Positions 1,147 through 36,507 of a stretch of DNA of 44,268 nt are shown in pieces (positions within the stretch are counted from its first letter, which is position 1; every line of letters begins with the position of its first letter). The stretch is from positions 8,499 to 52,766 of IMG/VR virus record IMGVR_UViG_3300030102_006899. One strand, 5' to 3'. Under the pieces are notes generated by a model. The model was not told the origin of the DNA and did no database searches. It worked only from the letters and a program-made list of their open reading frames with translations. Origin of the DNA: a virus. The position numbers and the translations under genes were made by a program.

Positions 1147-2763
1147 TTATTCCTTTATCATATATCTACTATCAAATACAATAGTACCAAATTTTAAACT
1201 ATTTGCAATACATATACCAACAAATTCAGCACAGGCAGGAACAACTGCATTCCCAAGTGCTTTTATTTTATTTACACGATCAGGTTCATTTTCTACTGTT
1301 CTGGGTACAGTTTCCCATGGTTCTATAAGATATTCGTCTTGATAAATCTTAGGATCTTCAGCTAATTGATTTTTAGGATTAATTCCTTGTGCTATTCTTT
1401 TTGTACTAGGTCTGCTACTAGATGCTATAGGTGTATGCCATTTTTGTTGTTTCCACTCAATATTTGTTACCTCTGTCATTTCTTTGTCATATTTTATTTC
1501 TGATAAAAATGGTTTTATTTTATTCCAATCTTCAATAGATGGATAACTAAATCCAGAGCTATCATACCTAAACCAATGTTCTATTGTAGATTTTTTTATG
1601 TCTGTAGAATCATTAAGTAACTTAACAGAAGTTACGCTTCTTAAGTAATCAACAAATTCTTTTTGTGGAGGCAGTAAATCTCTTTTAACCATTACATGAT
1701 TTTTATACTCTTCAAAAAGTTCAGGATTTTTTAATATCTGATCTATAGCTATTTGATCAGCTAAGGCTATTTGAACTTTTTCTCCTGAAGCTCTATGAGT
1801 TTTTCCTTGCATCAGTTTAGTTGCATGCTTCATAGCATCTTCTTTGGAATCAGCTAATGTTGGAGTTCTCCAAGTGTGATCCGAGTTGTAAGACCAATAA
1901 TTTGGTAGTCCTAATCTTCCTGCCAATCCTGGGGAAAGCCCATAAGAAGAGACACCCATTGACTGTTCAAGCGTTTCCCAATAAGTTCTGGGTTTCTTTC
2001 CCCCATGTCCTGTTCCAGAGTCGATCCATGCTTCCCTGCTTTCACTGAGGGAGCTTGTTTGTTTATTGGTTTCGAGGCTTGACTTGCTCTCGGAGTTGAG
2101 TAAAGTTTCCTGTTCTCTCTGAGATTCCCTGTACTTTTTCTCTTGCTCTTCTTGGATTTGTCTCCACGATATAGAGCGTTCTCCAAAGCTTCCCCTTCTC
2201 TCGGTTTCAAGTAATCCATAGTGTTCGGAGTTTCCCACGATGAAGATTCTTTCTCTAAGGTGCGAGGCATTAACCGAGGCTGCTGATACAATTTGCCATT
2301 CAACACTATACCCCCTATCGGAAAGGAAAGAAATAACTCTTGCGAATGCTCCTCCTTTTCTGCCTTCGTCATCTTTTGCTGTAAGGAGTCCTCTGACATT
2401 TTCTGCCACAACCCATTTTGGTCTAAGTACGCTAATGGCTCTCTCGAATTGATACCATAACATTCCTCGTTCATCTTCTTCACTCATTCCTTTCCTATTA
2501 CCTGCGTAACTAAAACTTTGACAAGGAAAACCTCCTATCAAAACATCAACAGGTTCTAATTTACTAAAATCTACTTCTGCAATATCTTTATTTATTACAG
2601 TTGAATTAGGGAATCTTTTTTCTAATACACTACAACAGTATTCATCGACTTCAACTTGCCATATTGTTTTTGCATTAAAATCTGATAGACCTCTTTCTAT
2701 ACCTAGATCTAAGCCACCAATACCTGAAAAAAGACTACCTATTTTTATTTTTCTTCTCCCCAT
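1147..2763 (-). CDS. dcm: DNA cytosine-5 methyltransferase (Dcm type)
   Basis: A 538-residue C5-MTase. Motif I is GSLFSGIGGLDLG (9-21). Motif IV, GGFPCQSFS (77-85), holds the catalytic Cys81. Motif VI is AENVRG (120-125), motif VIII RERIFIVG (170-177), and motif X KALGNAVVP near residue 509. It would methylate C5 of cytosine from SAM, probably to protect phage DNA from restriction or for regulation. Oddly, about 230 residues separate YGLSPGLAGRL (about 280) from motif X, including several W-x-TP segments, far more than a compact Dcm carries; this may be an enlarged target-recognition domain. Residues 94-284 are also read in a second frame (see the 1911-2483 entry), and there the GC content is about 45 percent against about 27 percent in the downstream part of the gene. 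The ATG lacks a good ribosome site and overlaps a 33-aa gene, so translation may be coupled. Confidence 0.93.
   Translation of the reverse strand: MGRRKIKIGSLFSGIGGLDLGIERGLSDFNAKTIWQVEVDEYCCSVLEKRFPNSTVINKDIAEVDFSKLEPVDVLIGGFPCQSFSYAGNRKGMSEEDERGMLWYQFERAISVLRPKWVVAENVRGLLTAKDDEGRKGGAFARVISFLSDRGYSVEWQIVSAASVNASHLRERIFIVGNSEHYGLLETERRGSFGERSISWRQIQEEQEKKYRESQREQETLLNSESKSSLETNKQTSSLSESREAWIDSGTGHGGKKPRTYWETLEQSMGVSSYGLSPGLAGRLGLPNYWSYNSDHTWRTPTLADSKEDAMKHATKLMQGKTHRASGEKVQIALADQIAIDQILKNPELFEEYKNHVMVKRDLLPPQKEFVDYLRSVTSVKLLNDSTDIKKSTIEHWFRYDSSGFSYPSIEDWNKIKPFLSEIKYDKEMTEVTNIEWKQQKWHTPIASSSRPSTKRIAQGINPKNQLAEDPKIYQDEYLIEPWETVPRTVENEPDRVNKIKALGNAVVPACAEFVGICIANSLKFGTIVFDSRYMIKE
1911..2483 (-). 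CDS. overprinted ORF inside dcm: methyltransferase-associated TP-repeat protein
   Basis: A 190-residue frame lying wholly inside dcm on the same strand, shifted by one base. It does not look like random sequence. It reads CYGINSREPLAYLD, then SFPIGGIVLNGKLYQQPRL, SSSWETPNTMDYLKP, KLYSTPRASQASKP and finally LNSQWVSLLMGFPQDW. This order (S-R-E-x-L-A-Y-L-D, a F-P-x-x-G segment with N-G-K-L-Y, repeated x-TP-x-A-x-x, then LN-x-x-W-V-x-x-LMGFP-x-x-W) is that of a protein often encoded beside phage C5 methyltransferases and resembling their target-recognition region. The start is GTG at 2483, with AAAGGA just upstream, or ATG at 2474. Local GC is raised throughout. It could be a real overlapping gene, a relic of a frameshift, or part of a fused product. 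Whether it is translated is unproven. Confidence 0.6.
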   Translation of the reverse strand: MKKMNEECYGINSREPLAYLDQNGLWQKMSEDSLQQKMTKAEKEEHSQELFLSFPIGGIVLNGKLYQQPRLMPRTLEKESSSWETPNTMDYLKPREGEALENALYRGDKSKKSKRKSTGNLRENRKLYSTPRASQASKPINKQAPSVKAGKHGSTLEQDMGERNPELIGKRLNSQWVSLLMGFPQDWQED

Positions 2764-2836: not shown

Positions 2837-2969
2837 TACTCTCCTTCAACTGTTGTTCATCATTAGATAAATCTAAACAATCATCACAAATTATTAAAAC
2901 ATCTTTTTTTTGTAATGGTTCTTTACATAGTCTACATAATTGGACTGTTAGTATTGCTCTCTTTTCCAT
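2820..2969 (-). CDS. zinc-ribbon microprotein, 49 aa
   Basis: Begins MEKRAILTVQLCRLCKEPL and contains CRLC and CDDC fourteen residues apart, a minimal zinc ribbon, followed by an acidic and lysine-rich tail. I chose the ATG at 2969, not the longer frame from 3005, because GGGAGAGAAG precedes it directly and because it then overlaps the end of the upstream gene by the short span usual here. Zinc ribbons of this size in phages often bind nucleic acid or a host protein. Specific role unknown. Confidence 0.6.
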   Translation of the reverse strand: MEKRAILTVQLCRLCKEPLQKKDVLIICDDCLDLSNDEQQLKESNEKKI

Positions 2970-3484
2970 CTTCTCTCCCAATCTTTTGCATCTTCCCAAC
3001 ACCACTTACTACTATTCCAATCTCTCCACTGAGTTCTACCATAAATATCTTCAGCTAAAATACTTGCAAACATAATGTTGTAATAAGGAGTAAATTGTAC
3101 TTTTGTTTGTTCAAATCCATGGCTTGATTTAGAAGTGGGACCTTCGTATGGTCGCCCATGACGAAGGATTACCCACTCGTTCCACCTAGGCAGATCATAT
3201 TCCTCAGCAACCCAATTCCAGGTCCAAGGTACGAATTGCATAACGCCTGAATCGGAATTGTCATCACGATATGCAGTATCTTTTCCCCTACTTTCGCACC
3301 ACCCAATTCTTACAGCAGTATCTATGTTTTCAAAATCAAAAAATTCTAAATAAAGGTCTGAATATTTTCTCATAGAAGAAGGTATTTCTCTTCTACATTC
3401 TAAAGATTGTTGAACAAATTGTGTTTCACTGCCTATTAGGGGTGTAGAAAAACTTGCTAAGAATAGCATACATTCAGCTATCAT
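2948..3484 (-). CDS. exported lysozyme-like lytic transglycosylase
   Basis: 178 residues. The N-terminus MIAECMLFLASFSTPLIG is a probable signal peptide. The core reads IGWCESRGKDT (60-70) and SGVMQFVPWTW (79-89), matching the SLT/lysozyme-like fold: the E of ES, here Glu64, is the expected catalytic acid, and S-G-x-M-Q-F forms the second substrate strand. Such enzymes cut the MurNAc-GlcNAc bond of peptidoglycan. The C-terminus is tryptophan-rich and basic (WERRWKREQY). An AAGGAG site precedes the ATG. It lies far from the lysis module at 42574-43776 and on the opposite strand, so it might help entry, superinfection exclusion or a different lysis step. A resuscitation-promoting-factor-like role is an alternative. 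Confidence 0.75.
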   Translation of the reverse strand: MIAECMLFLASFSTPLIGSETQFVQQSLECRREIPSSMRKYSDLYLEFFDFENIDTAVRIGWCESRGKDTAYRDDNSDSGVMQFVPWTWNWVAEEYDLPRWNEWVILRHGRPYEGPTSKSSHGFEQTKVQFTPYYNIMFASILAEDIYGRTQWRDWNSSKWCWEDAKDWERRWKREQY

Positions 3485-3763: not shown

Positions 3764-3793
3764 ATTATAAACATAAAGTTTGCATTTGTGCAA
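3764..3793 (-). promoter_or_regulatory. sigma-70-type promoter for the minus-strand operon
   Basis: On the minus strand the sequence reads TTGCAC, 18 bases, TATAAT: -35 at 3788-3793, perfect -10 at 3764-3769. The transcript would start near 3757, a short distance before the ribosome site of the 3506-3736 gene. Confidence 0.7.
3780..3793. promoter_or_regulatory. palindrome between divergent promoters (candidate operator)
   Basis: TTGCA, TTTG, TGCAA is a perfect inverted repeat with a four-base centre. Its right arm is most of the minus-strand -35 box, and it also overlaps the probable plus-strand -35 (TTGTGC, 3786-3791). A protein bound here would block both promoters. The HTH protein encoded just to the right is an obvious candidate, but nothing in the sequence proves binding. 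Confidence 0.45.
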
Positions 3794-3816
3794 GAATCTG
3801 ATAAACTTTTTATATA
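3786..3816 (+). promoter_or_regulatory. probable promoter for the HTH/zinc-finger gene
   Basis: TTGTGC (3786-3791) is followed after 17-19 bases by TTTATA/TATATA (3809-3816). The boxes are weaker than those on the opposite strand. A start near 3822 would leave almost no leader before the AAGGAG ribosome site at 3823-3828. Confidence 0.4.
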
Positions 3817-3833
3817 GTATTGAAGGAGAACAT

Positions 3834-4655
3834 TTGGACAACAAAAAAAGATTTACACCTCTAAAATTAACAAAAGAAGAAATTATCGAATTAATTCTAA
3901 GTGATCCAAGTAAAACAAACATTGAATGGGGTAATGAATGGGGTGTTTCTAGGGAAAGAGTTAGGCAGTTAAGAGTTAGATTTGGTATTCCTAGTGTAAA
4001 AGCCTTTAATCATGATGTTTTTAACGAAGCATTAAAAAGAATTGAAAATGGTTATGGCAATTTAAATGCTTCTTTATTTAAAGATATGCCAAATTTTGGT
4101 TTAAGAACTTTAAAGAATTGGATGGTAAATGATCAAAACATTAGAAGAGCAGTAGAAAGTGCTAATCAAAAAGCTTACAATAATAAATATCATCCACTTC
4201 AAAAAATGTGTAGTCAATGTGAAATTGTTTTACCTATAGATAAATTTTATAGTTCAAAAACAGGAAGAGACAAAAAAATGCACAAATGTATTGATTGTGA
4301 TATTAAAACAGTTAAATACTACTACGATAAAAGATCTGTTACTGAACCTACTGTAGATAAAAAGCAATGTGCAATTTACAAAGATCTTGGAGAACTTCCT
4401 GCAGAATTTTTTCATAAATCAAGAAAGACTGCAACAGGATTGCAATATACCTGTAAACAATATGGTAAGGCTTACTCAAAGTATAAAAATATGTTTTTAA
4501 AAGCAAGTGCTATTGAAAACCCTTCACAAAAAATGTCAGAGTTAAAATTTTTAGGAGATTGGAAACTAAAAGCTTACAATGAGGGAAAACAAAACTTAAT
4601 AAAAGATTTACAAATTTACAATGCAAAAGTGGAAGGTCAGAAAATCTTCGGTTAG
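3834..4655 (+). CDS. HTH and zinc-finger DNA-binding protein
   Basis: 273 residues from TTG 3834; AAGGAG lies five bases upstream, while the longer frame from TTG 3780 would run through the promoter. Residues about 28-55 (NEWGVSRERVRQLRVRFG) resemble an HTH of the sigma region 4 type. A zinc finger follows, CSQC (126-129) and CIDC (152-155) with KFYSSKTGRDKK between, a pattern common in phage HNH-associated and DNA-binding proteins. A second copy of the same unit follows at about 179-210, but each CxxC has become CxxY. No HNH catalytic residues are seen. The C-terminus is lysine-rich and helical. Likely a regulator or a small-terminase-like DNA-binding protein; lying alone between the divergent promoters and a terminator-like structure, a regulator is favoured. 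Confidence 0.6.
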   Translation: MDNKKRFTPLKLTKEEIIELILSDPSKTNIEWGNEWGVSRERVRQLRVRFGIPSVKAFNHDVFNEALKRIENGYGNLNASLFKDMPNFGLRTLKNWMVNDQNIRRAVESANQKAYNNKYHPLQKMCSQCEIVLPIDKFYSSKTGRDKKMHKCIDCDIKTVKYYYDKRSVTEPTVDKKQCAIYKDLGELPAEFFHKSRKTATGLQYTCKQYGKAYSKYKNMFLKASAIENPSQKMSELKFLGDWKLKAYNEGKQNLIKDLQIYNAKVEGQKIFG

Positions 4656-8294: not shown

Positions 8295-11200
8295 ATGGTT
8301 GATTACGCTTTAACAAGTAGTTTAGATACAGATACCTCGAAAGCTCAGTCTAAAATTTCGACCTTTTTAGGTCAAACACAACAAAAATTTACTAAGATGC
8401 TTTCTTCTGTATCTGCAGGTCTGCAGGTTGCATCTGTAGCTACATTCGCAGGATTAGTTCTTGCTATGGTTGGTGGTACAGCCGCAGCAGTCAAGTTTGA
8501 AAACGAGTTTGCAAATGTAAAGAAGACAATGAACGATGTCAAAGATCCTCAAGTCTTCAAAGCAATCGAAAAAGATCTTTTAAACCTAGCACAACAAATT
8601 CCTGTTATGGCAGGAGAGCTTGCAGGCATAGCAGCAGTTGGTGGTCAGTTAGGTGTAGGTGCACAAGATATAGCTAGATTTACAGAGGTTGTAGCAAAAT
8701 TAGGAACAGCTACAAACATGACTGCAGAACAAGCAGCAACATCTATGGCTAGATTTCTTAATGTAACAAATGAATCTACAGATCAAATAGGTAAATACGC
8801 TGCGGTTCTTGTTGAATTAGGTAACAGTACAGCAGCAACTGAGGGCGAGATAATTATGCTTGCTCAAAACTTTGGTGCTACAGGTACATTAGCAGGATTA
8901 TCAACAGAAGAAATTCTTGCATTCTCAGCAGCAATGAGAGAAACAGGTCAGCAATCTCAAGCAGGTGCTACAGCATTAACAAAATTATTTAGAGGTTTAT
9001 CAGACGCAGCAAAGATTGGTGGACAGGAAATGGCTGTTTTTGCAGAAACAGCAGGAATGGATGTTCATGAATTTAGGAGATTGATTGAAACTGATATTGG
9101 CGAAGCAGCAACAATATTTCTTGGTGGGATCAACGATATGGGTGCATCAGGTCAATCTACAACTGCAATATTAGATGAACTAGGTTTAGGTACTGAAAGA
9201 GTTTCAAGAGCTATATTATCTCTAGCTAACAACGAAGAAGGTCTTGCTGATGCTAGAGCTAGAGCAATTAAACAAGCAGTTACACAGAATGCTTTAAATG
9301 ATGAAGCAGCACAAAAATTTGAGACTGCTGCTATGCAAATACAACAAATCAAAGCTGCTTTAAATGCAGCTGCCATTACATTAGGTCAAACATTTTTACC
9401 TGTTTTTAAAGTATTCTTGGAGTTCATATTAGGTGTAGTTGCTGCTTTACAAGGGTTAGCAGAACTATTTAACGAGTTTCCTGCATTATTCGTAGCTCTA
9501 ACTGTAGGTACAGGATCTGTCGCTTTAGCAATGAAAACTGCAGCTAGTGAAGTTACTACATTTAGTGCAGCAATAGGAAATGCAGCTAAAGCAGTTACCA
9601 AATTTTCAATAATTGCAACTGTTGTTGTAGGTGCTTTTGTAATGATGGGTAAAGCCTATAAGAAATTTAAAGAAGACATTGCAGACACAGAAACTATTAT
9701 GGACGCTACTACTGACATACTAGATAAGATAAGAATAGATTTAACAAATGGTTTCAAAGCTGATCCAATTCAAAAAGAAGATTGGGCAGATTTCTTACAA
9801 AACTTACCTGAAGCAACAAGAGATGCTGTAGAGTTTGGTGTCAAACAAGGATTTTTAGGTGCTGATGTATTTGACGCTTTAGTAAGTGGTGCTAAAGATT
9901 TGCCTCCAGAATTTACACAATTGTTTGCAGATGTTATTGATCTTGATGAAGGATTTTTTGGTAGAGGAGATCTAGATGTAGTAGAAGTACAAAAAATGTT
10001 GAAAATGATTGAAGATAGTGGCAACAGTTCATTAGATCCACTTAAGGCAACTTTACAAGAATATTTAAGTTTGATTACCAAAAGCGATAAAGCATCCAGA
10101 GAACAAAGAGACACACTTATGGAAGTGTTAAAAGTTCAATTTGGAATTGTAGATGGTGTCCAAGAAGAACTTGCTGTTAGAAATAAAGAGATAAGTAAAG
10201 AACTTAACGATCACTTTGGAATATTAGTTAAAACAGATAAAAGAATTAGAGACATGATGTCTACCGAAGAAGGTAGATTAAAACTTGCTAGAGATCTTGC
10301 TAAACAAGGTTTACAACCATTTGTTGACTTATTAGGAGATGCAAATGAAGAAGCAGACGCATTGGCAGAAAACTTTGAACAAGTTGAAAGCAATATTGAT
10401 GTTCTAGTACGAATGGCTAATGACTTCAGATCTAAAGTTGATAACTTATTTGCTCCACTACAAGAACAATTTGAAATGCAACAAAATGAAATGGATCTTG
10501 TAAAAGCTCATGAAACTCATGCCAAACTACACGAAGAACAGCAAGATTTAACACAAGAAGATTTAGATTTACAAAAAGAATTAGCTGATTTAGGCGATGC
10601 TGATTTAAGAACTCACGAAGAGAAACTAGAAATGCAAGAGCTTGAAAACGAAGCTGTTGAAATAGAAAAACGACTTCGTGAAGATATGGCACTAAGTGCT
10701 AATGACCAACTTCGTAAAGAAAAACTTAAAAAAGAATTAGCTAGAGTCAATGCAGCAGCTGCCCAAGGTTCTTTAGAGTTTGCAGATCTTGAGAAGAAAG
10801 CTATTGAAGAACAGATTGCAGAAATAGATGCAAAAGCTCTAACTCAAAAAGATGCAGATGATAAGAGAGCTGAAGCATCCAAAATAGCTCAAAGTGCTGA
10901 AGAGCGTAGACTTGAAAGAATTAATGAGGTTGAAGAACGAAGAATTGAAATTGGCGAAAGACTAAAAGAAATACCAAGAGACATTAAAGAAGCTCACTTT
11001 GATATTCATAAACTACAAAGAGATTTAGTTAACAATCAACTTGATTTAATAGAAGCTCAAGCTAAATACAACACAATGAAAGAAGATGAGCTAAGAATGA
11101 CTGCTGAGTTACTAGGTATGAATATGACTCAGATAGATGGTCTTATGACACTTATGAACCACAACAGAGTTGAGTCAAGTATATTTGGTCAAGGTTACAT

Positions 11201-34598: not shown

Positions 34599-35093
34599 AT
34601 GCGTAAAATCTATTATGTCCCTGAAGGACAAGATATACTCGATTATCAAGATATTTGGTTAAACCACACTCAAGAAGTACATAATAATTTATCTGAAAAT
34701 ATTAAAGAATATGTTAAAGATAAAGATGTTGCTCAATGGGTATTAATACCTGAATATACTTATCCTGAAGTTCCAAAATTAATAAACAATCAAGAATTTT
34801 ATGAGTATCTATTTATAGATGATTTTGCAGTATTAGAAGACAATCCACAGTATGTTATGGAAGCTTGGAAGTTAAATTTAGATAATCCTAAAGAAGAACC
34901 AATATTGTATGAAACTTATAATATGCAATGGGAAAAAGTACTGTATAAATTCTTTACTGATCACATACAACTACCTACAGGTTGGTATAAACTAAAATTT
35001 ATAAAAGATGGAGATTTAGTAGATTCTATGGATATTTCTGTTTATGAAAAACATGAAGATGATACAACTATATATCATAAAAGAGGTAGATGA
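34599..35093 (+). CDS. hypothetical protein, 164 aa
   Basis: MRKIYYVPEGQDILDYQDIW with AGGAGGG as a very strong ribosome site. Aromatic-rich (QWVLIPEYTYPEVPKLI, PTGWYKLKFIKDGDLVD). It opens the cassette that includes the oxygenases and is coupled to the first by an ATGA overlap, so its product is probably needed in similar amount. No conserved metal-ligand pattern is seen. Function unknown. Confidence 0.55.
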   Translation: MRKIYYVPEGQDILDYQDIWLNHTQEVHNNLSENIKEYVKDKDVAQWVLIPEYTYPEVPKLINNQEFYEYLFIDDFAVLEDNPQYVMEAWKLNLDNPKEEPILYETYNMQWEKVLYKFFTDHIQLPTGWYKLKFIKDGDLVDSMDISVYEKHEDDTTIYHKRGR

Positions 35094-35797
35094 TGTGGAA
35101 AGTAGGAGAGCCTAAAGAAGTAGTACCAGGTGTTGTAGCGTGGGAAAAAGTTATTGATGTTCCTGATGGAATAATAGATTCTATGAACGAAGAGGTAGAT
35201 ATTTGGAAACAAAAAGTATCTGATGCAGGAAATAAGCCAGGTAACTATTACACAGTAACAAACGACAATGGACCTGTTAGGTTTGATCCTGAAAATGATT
35301 TTCACAGACAAGAAAACAAAAACTATCTAAAGCAAGTACAAGACAACACTTTAAATAAAGTTGCACAATATTTTGAATTGTTTCCTGATGTCAAAGAAGA
35401 AATAGGTTGGTTTGAAACTTATCAATACATAACTTACAAACCACCAAAACACATGAAGTATCACAGTGATAATCACGCTACTAGAAATCCTGCAACAGGA
35501 ATGATGTATGTTACACCATATTTAAGAAGAATTACTTGCCTTACCTATTTAAATGATGATTTTGATGGTGGAGCTTTAGATTTTAGATATTGGAGTGAAA
35601 GAGGATACTTACCTTACAAACCACCTGCAGGTTCTTTAGTAATTATGCCAAGTGGTTTTATGTGGTCTCATGCTACAACGCCATTATTAAATGGTAGAAA
35701 ATCTGCGTTTTTAGTTGCTGTATCTTCTGGCACAGATTACGACAAGTTTTTAGAAACATTAGATATTGAACAAACAGCTCAAAGGGAGTTTATGTAA
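35090..35797 (+). CDS. 2-oxoglutarate/Fe(II)-dependent oxygenase (prolyl hydroxylase-like)
   Basis: 235 residues. The iron triad is visible: H-S-D at 125-127 (MKYHSDNHA) and a distal histidine at 194 (MWSHATTPLLNGRKSAFLV), with Arg203 as probable 2-oxoglutarate ligand. LTYLNDDFDGGALDF and PPAGSLVIMPSG are the typical strand segments of the double-stranded beta helix of P4H-like enzymes. Such enzymes use O2 and 2-oxoglutarate to hydroxylate protein side chains or other substrates. It directly precedes a second oxygenase, coupled by TAATG. Substrate unknown. Confidence 0.85.
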   Translation: MMWKVGEPKEVVPGVVAWEKVIDVPDGIIDSMNEEVDIWKQKVSDAGNKPGNYYTVTNDNGPVRFDPENDFHRQENKNYLKQVQDNTLNKVAQYFELFPDVKEEIGWFETYQYITYKPPKHMKYHSDNHATRNPATGMMYVTPYLRRITCLTYLNDDFDGGALDFRYWSERGYLPYKPPAGSLVIMPSGFMWSHATTPLLNGRKSAFLVAVSSGTDYDKFLETLDIEQTAQREFM

Positions 35798-36507
35798 TGA
35801 TAGAAACAGTGATGGGATGTGTAGAGATAACTAATAATTGGTTAACTGATGAACAAGCACAACACATAATAAAAACAATAGGAGATGCAGATAGAGAACC
35901 TAATTGTCATGCAAAATATAAAAAAGCAGACATAGGAAAGAACGAAGATGGTGGTACTTATAGGTCTAATTACTTAATGCCTATTACTTCTAATGCACAT
36001 GTAGATGACAGTTCTCCTGAATACCGAACAGCTTTAAAAGAAGGAACAGTCAATCACATAGAAAATTTAAGAAAAATACATGATTTGATTGGCGAAAAAA
36101 TGAAAGCTAGTGTTATGGATTATATTGAAAGGTACGAGTTTTCTATAGGTTTTGATGAAGGTTATACAATATTAAAGTATCAAAGTGGTCAAGAGTACAA
36201 AGCTCACTGTGATTATGCACCACATATACCTAGATATTTATCTGCGTTGATACTTTTAAATCCTACAGAGTATGAAGGTGGAGGTACATACTTCACACAT
36301 TTCGATGTAAATGTAAAACCTGAAACTCCATCATTAGTTCTTTTTCCAAGTAATTATGCTTACACTCATACAGCTTTACCTGTCATTAGTGGAACTAAAT
36401 ATGCAATAGTAACATGGTTAGGTCATCAAATAGACTTTGATGGTATACCACCTATGTGGTTACCTAATGGAGAAAATAAATATTTTAACAGAGCAGAGTT
36501 TGGATAA
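35797..36507 (+). CDS. 2-oxoglutarate/Fe(II)-dependent oxygenase
   Basis: 236 residues. H-C-D at 137-139 (YKAHCDYAP), distal His191 (YAYTHTALPVISGTKYAIV) and Lys201 in the 2-oxoglutarate position. YLSALILLNPTEYEGGGTYF and PSLVLFPSN are the paired strands of the fold. It differs from the preceding enzyme in most of its length, so the two are not a recent duplication and may act on different substrates or positions. A Lys instead of Arg at the 2-oxoglutarate site is known in the superfamily. Confidence 0.85.
   Translation: MIETVMGCVEITNNWLTDEQAQHIIKTIGDADREPNCHAKYKKADIGKNEDGGTYRSNYLMPITSNAHVDDSSPEYRTALKEGTVNHIENLRKIHDLIGEKMKASVMDYIERYEFSIGFDEGYTILKYQSGQEYKAHCDYAPHIPRYLSALILLNPTEYEGGGTYFTHFDVNVKPETPSLVLFPSNYAYTHTALPVISGTKYAIVTWLGHQIDFDGIPPMWLPNGENKYFNRAEFG

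Follow-up and report, generated by a model that had tools for sequence, protein, structure and literature searches.

The multispecific phage C5-methyltransferases SPR, phi3T and SPbeta carry several recognition modules in one chain and in one reading frame. In the two-chain enzyme M.EcoHK31I, a different frame of the alpha gene reportedly encodes the beta chain. The larger chain of this enzyme contains motifs I–VIII and X, the smaller chain contributes motif IX and the predicted target recognition domain has been placed in the larger chain (PMC3404938). In M.AquI the smaller chain carries motifs IX and X, and split C5-methyltransferases assembled from fragments are active (PMC3404938).

The locus described here lies in a window of 44,268 nt, the whole stretch of DNA that was analysed, corresponding to positions 8,499–52,766 of the viral record IMGVR_UViG_3300030102_006899; coordinates are window positions unless another record is named. 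Sequence comparison indicates that the locus very probably encodes one cytosine-5 DNA methyltransferase in the form of two interlocked polypeptides, alpha and beta. It is best read as a putative obligate two-subunit enzyme of the M.EcoHK31I type, with motifs I–VIII and X in alpha and motif IX in beta, a likeness drawn from the published motif description. The difference from M.EcoHK31I is that here beta also bears modules and that homologous modules occur in either chain. Given the reported precedent of a beta chain in another frame of the alpha gene, the locus does not constitute a new category. As far as the open-access literature searched shows, what is new in two-chain C5-methyltransferases is the breadth of the family, the measured selection on two frames, a form of 380 codons and the presence of modules in either frame.

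Other systems are similar in part. M.AquI and the mycobacteriophage pairs of LoneWolf, Firecracker and Euratis are likewise split between motifs VIII and IX, and the beta chains of the mycobacteriophage pairs belong to phrog_1008 (9e-73 for the second chain of LoneWolf). However, their second chain holds both IX and X, whereas here X lies in alpha, which sets the locus apart from the M.AquI type. Furthermore, the chains of the mycobacteriophage pairs overlap over a short distance (101 nt in LoneWolf, 209 nt in Firecracker), whereas here beta is wholly within alpha. Single-chain C5-methyltransferases (PF00145; M.HaeIII, M.HhaI) share motifs I–VIII and X and their order along the DNA, but in the window motif IX and the target recognition region fall outside the alpha frame. 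As in SPR, phi3T and SPbeta, several interchangeable target-recognition-like modules are inserted between motifs VIII and X; here, in contrast, the modules are distributed over two frames and their recognition role is putative.

The locus and its two reading frames

All features of the locus lie on the minus strand. Alpha is an open reading frame of 538 amino acids (1147–2763) which matches PF00145 (2.9e-51, confined to residues 7–235), TIGR00675 (8.7e-51) and M.HaeIII (2e-16). Its motifs I–VIII (FSGIGG, GFPCQSFSYAG, AENV, HLRERIFIVG) occupy 2233–2742 and include the catalytic PCQ and ENV of C5 cytosine DNA methyltransferases. They are followed by a spacer across the DNA of beta, by extra modules and by motif X (ALGNAVVPACAEF; ALGNAVVP) at 1222–1260. 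One of these modules, m2 (KHATKLMQGK ... KSTIEHWFR ... KIKPFL; 1429–1872), is homologous to part of the beta chain of another locus, L039. Motif IX is missing from alpha: IX and X are not found together in one chain, as X is in alpha and a IX-like segment in beta only.

The sequence-only reading had placed a second protein at 1911–2483, in another frame of the methyltransferase gene, and had noted a GTG with AAAGGA close upstream as a possible start and a raised GC content in the overlap. An open reading frame of 190 amino acids is found exactly there, at +1 with respect to alpha, on the same strand and wholly inside the alpha frame. Its GTG start stands 4 nt downstream of the Shine–Dalgarno-like sequence GGAAAGGA (2488–2495), which is embedded within alpha codons; comparable sites (GGAAAGGA, AAAAGGAG, AGAAAGGAG) precede the beta start in the relatives compared. 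GC content reaches 45–46% over 1921–2400 versus 28% over 1441–1680. The overlap consists of two parts: in R1 (2233–2483) alpha motifs VI–VIII lie over the N-terminal half of beta and both frames are constrained, and in R2 (1911–2232) beta is constrained and the alpha frame is a stop-free passenger spacer. The motif-IX-like segment of beta (LNSQWVSLLMGFPQDW) is located at 1923–1970.

The surroundings contain further open reading frames. An edge fragment at 2–292 on the minus strand, the strand of the nearby methyltransferase, resembles phage phosphoadenosine phosphosulfate reductase (phrog_424, 3.7e-12). At 2948–3484, also on the minus strand, a frame of 178 amino acids looks lysozyme- or transglycosylase-like by eye and has no PHROG match. 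On the plus strand, a zinc-finger-like product (3780–4655) shows weak similarity to endonuclease VII (2.3e-8) and to a Lar-like restriction alleviation family (8.4e-8), and two adjoining frames are present at 35090–36507, the first matching 2OG-Fe(II) oxygenases (phrog_61, 3.2e-19) and the second similar by eye.

Coding and selection in both frames

Of 3000 synonymous recodings that preserved the alpha protein, 0 kept the +1 frame open across 191 codons. In the reverse test, which preserved beta beyond motif VIII, an open alpha frame survived in 0–18 of 3000 recodings, varying with the sequence and the codon model. An open nested frame by chance is excluded. A scan of IMG/VR identified 62 viral contigs or loci encoding relatives; where the region is complete, a beta frame of ∼139–380 amino acids lies inside the alpha frame. 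Both frames are open in the relatives.

Substitutions were analysed in two clades, one of 13 distinct close relatives (counting the window) and a second of nine sequences. Among the 13 relatives, differences outside the overlap mostly affect the third position of alpha codons (59% before it and 52% after it). Across R1, the stretch of motifs VI–VIII, the total rate is lower and third-position divergence is 0.090, as against 0.37–0.39 outside the overlap. In R2, past motif VIII, the pattern changes frame: 73% of the differences coincide with the first position of alpha codons, equivalent to the third position of beta codons, and the residue difference is 0.31 for the alpha frame versus 0.069 for the beta frame. 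The second clade displays the same frame-specific pattern. Between the beta ribosome site and the beta stop, synonymous change in alpha is approximately four-fold lower. In blocks of 12 codons, this suppression sets in at the block of the beta ribosome site and start and ceases at the beta stop in three clades whose beta chains measure 190, about 187 and 374–380 amino acids. It is confirmed that the nested beta frame is real and that alpha and beta are both under selection. Synonymous-site constraint in homologues was a check proposed by the sequence-only reading, and it finds both frames constrained within the limits of beta. The true nested coding of two conserved families that the same reading had put forward is borne out by the homologues, by the two-frame constraint and by recurrence in unrelated genomes.

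The position at which constraint begins also bears on programmed +1 frameshifting, which would fuse motifs I–VIII of alpha to the recognition and IX part of beta, so that beta would not be a separate chain. The invariable +1 placement of beta and the collinearity of the functional parts along the DNA agree with such a fusion. However, constraint sets in where beta has its ribosome site and start, some 84 codons ahead of the end of motif VIII, rather than at a shift site beyond that motif, and both the start and the Shine–Dalgarno-like site are conserved. In addition, two shifts would be needed, because a single one loses motif X. Frameshifting is an improbable account of the locus.

Identity and distribution of the beta chain

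Beta belongs to PHROG 1008, matching phrog_1008, 'DNA methyltransferase', at 2.8e-11; alongside the PF00145 match of alpha, this bears out the proposal that both frames contain recognisable protein sequence. No model naming beta was found in Pfam or NCBIfam, and a search of solved structures gave no match. The C-terminal end, LNPxWVExLMGFPxGW, occupies the place of motif IX. The mycobacteriophage Filuzino has this segment in a single chain, immediately in front of motif X; the second chain of LoneWolf, Firecracker and Euratis contains it together with X. Profile comparison connects the beta end to the mycobacteriophage segment (probability 91%, E 1.6e-7) and that segment to canonical motif IX–X (91%, E 1.2e-7). 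Compared directly, the beta end and canonical motif IX match weakly (probability 5%), and the assignment therefore needs the bridge provided by the fused enzymes. Across 21 representatives the IX-like segment is found in beta only (21/21) and matches to the motif X pattern in alpha only (20/21).

A control that started from alpha examined the same relationship from the opposite side. Searching 299 Pseudomonadota genomes with alpha yielded matches in 98, and the best 30 loci were inspected. All ten alphas without an in-frame motif IX are accompanied by beta at +1 (two of these are cut by the contig end), whereas beta accompanies none of the 18 with a canonical in-frame IX (three of them recognised by eye), in which the +1 frame of the tail contains 5–12 stops. 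The other two loci are a truncated one and L135, which has an in-frame IX and a beta match limited to a shadow over motifs VI–VIII. Split and single-chain forms thus alternate.

This alternation weighs against the view that beta is a distinct DNA-binding partner or regulator, encoded at the same locus but dispensable for catalysis. In line with that idea, beta alone yields no confident predicted fold (AlphaFold with 34 relatives: pLDDT 55, pTM 0.23). However, beta occurs exactly where alpha lacks motif IX, and in fused relatives the segment at its end belongs to the single chain, which makes an independent partner decidedly improbable. The sequence-only reading had regarded the second protein as one normally adjacent to dcm genes; it would instead be the complementary half of the same enzyme, carrying the IX-like end that alpha lacks.

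A non-coding shadow, that is, a conserved alpha giving rise to a conserved-looking +1 translation, does occur over motifs VI–VIII: partial matches to the beta HMM in L135, with its in-frame IX, and in the fused L066 are shadows of alpha. For this reason the N-terminal half of beta alone was excluded as homology evidence, and the C-terminal half constitutes the stronger evidence. The resemblance that had been noted earlier holds for the C-terminal half; in the N-terminal half it is in part such a shadow. As an explanation of the whole frame, a shadow has very little probability: the suppression of synonymous change in alpha is confined to the limits of beta, and the +1 frame of canonical relatives is full of stops. 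For the C-terminal half it is refuted, as conservation beyond motif VIII is seen in the beta frame and not in the alpha frame.

Among phages, the +1 nesting occurs in those of Microcystis, Synechococcus, Vibrio, Pseudomonas, Bacteroides, Mycobacterium, Paenibacillus and Paracoccus; isolates with this layout include Vibrio phage 1.003.O and Synechococcus phage S-H1. It extends to plasmids of Leptospira, Bacteroides, Acinetobacter, Methylorubrum and Shinella, to an E. coli prophage and to six bacterial assemblies (Rhodobacteraceae, Bacillota, Gemmatimonadaceae). Among sampled genomes, the beta profile matches 4 of 399 Bacillota and 25 of 399 Pseudomonadota. Of 135 beta-HMM-positive frames, a set that includes near-duplicates and a few shadow matches, 118 are nested at +1, nine overlap partly at +1 and none is at +2; one is fused, four are separate (broken or frameshifted copies) and three have no alpha in the sequence piece. 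An assembly error or a collapsed or rearranged gene pair, the alternative raised by the sequence-only reading, has a negligible probability and is ruled out, since dozens of independent contigs, as well as finished records of phages, plasmids and bacteria, share this layout.

Two E. coli prophages offer variations. PCP07014 (L091, 2492–3253) holds a broken copy in which a stop interrupts each of the two frames at nearly the same position, and PT62 (L092, 1–520) contains the end of a second C5-methyltransferase whose +1 frame likewise gives a beta-like end (LNPAHSRWLMGLPRAWD).

Both chains are listed in none of 14 annotated nested records, two of which list beta alone, as 'hypothetical protein'. 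Standard annotation thus hides half of the enzyme, and the remainder can be called an incomplete methyltransferase. In phage records of Vibrio (L071, 1345–2043) and Pseudomonas (L073, 1282–2010), beta alone is annotated, as 'hypothetical protein', and the methyltransferase alpha is missed. No description of a widespread nested C5-methyltransferase family was found in an open-access literature library, a scope that makes this weak evidence.

The proposed two-chain enzyme and its modules

On the preferred reading of a two-chain methyltransferase, the DNA retains the canonical order of motifs I–VIII, target recognition region, IX and X, with the recognition and IX segment probably read in +1. Alpha would be translated in frame 0 from end to end, giving the cofactor-binding and catalytic part with motifs I–VIII, an unconserved hydrophilic spacer and then motif X. 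Beta would be initiated internally, from its own ribosome site inside alpha; it overlaps motifs VI–VIII, is predicted to provide target-recognition modules and motif IX, and stops before X. The two chains would then assemble into one C5-methyltransferase, which may methylate phage DNA, probably as a protection against restriction. The simplest origin would be a shift of the recognition–IX segment into +1, across which the alpha frame remained open.

Segments starting W-x-TP are present in both alpha and beta. We infer that these TP modules may be target recognition units, and they could perhaps confer several specificities. Residues 298–445 of the window alpha are 55% identical to residues 123–272 of the L039 beta over 150 amino acids (E 4e-55), and the similarity extends to the DNA across 362 nt. 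In the window clade this module, m2, is encoded in alpha and follows the beta stop; in a sister clade with long beta chains it is encoded in beta, within alpha. Over 120 codons its GC content rises from about 32% when alpha-coded in the window clade to 44% when beta-coded in the sister clade. Where m2 is coded once, GC content is 28–34% and the +2 frame has 11–20 stops. Where it is coded in beta, GC content is 43–47% and the third frame has 9–15 stops, and in all 19 loci the alpha frame has none, which shows that selection for a readable alpha frame persists across the beta DNA, presumably in order to reach motif X. Module m3 is encoded in alpha in L016 and in beta in L034, L039 and L062. The beta chain of an Oscillospiraceae assembly (L088, 3001–3771) contains a module resembling m1 of marine phages (ATPNTMDHLPQR...NLRE), which suggests that modules may travel between distant hosts.

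To our knowledge, it is rare for a long same-strand overlap to yield two conserved products whose functions can both be inferred; here the overlap extends up to 380 codons and is seen repeatedly across several phyla. The chances appear evenly balanced that the nested two-chain C5-methyltransferases represent an ancient and widespread case of dual coding, for the most part unannotated, in which modules move between frames, the enzyme is combinatorial and possibly multispecific, and the passenger frame is selected to be free of stops. The DNA of one module is read in a single frame in one clade and in two frames in the sister clade, a natural experiment that bears on what dual coding costs. Should the modules prove to be recognition units, their swaps would change the sites that phages protect from restriction.
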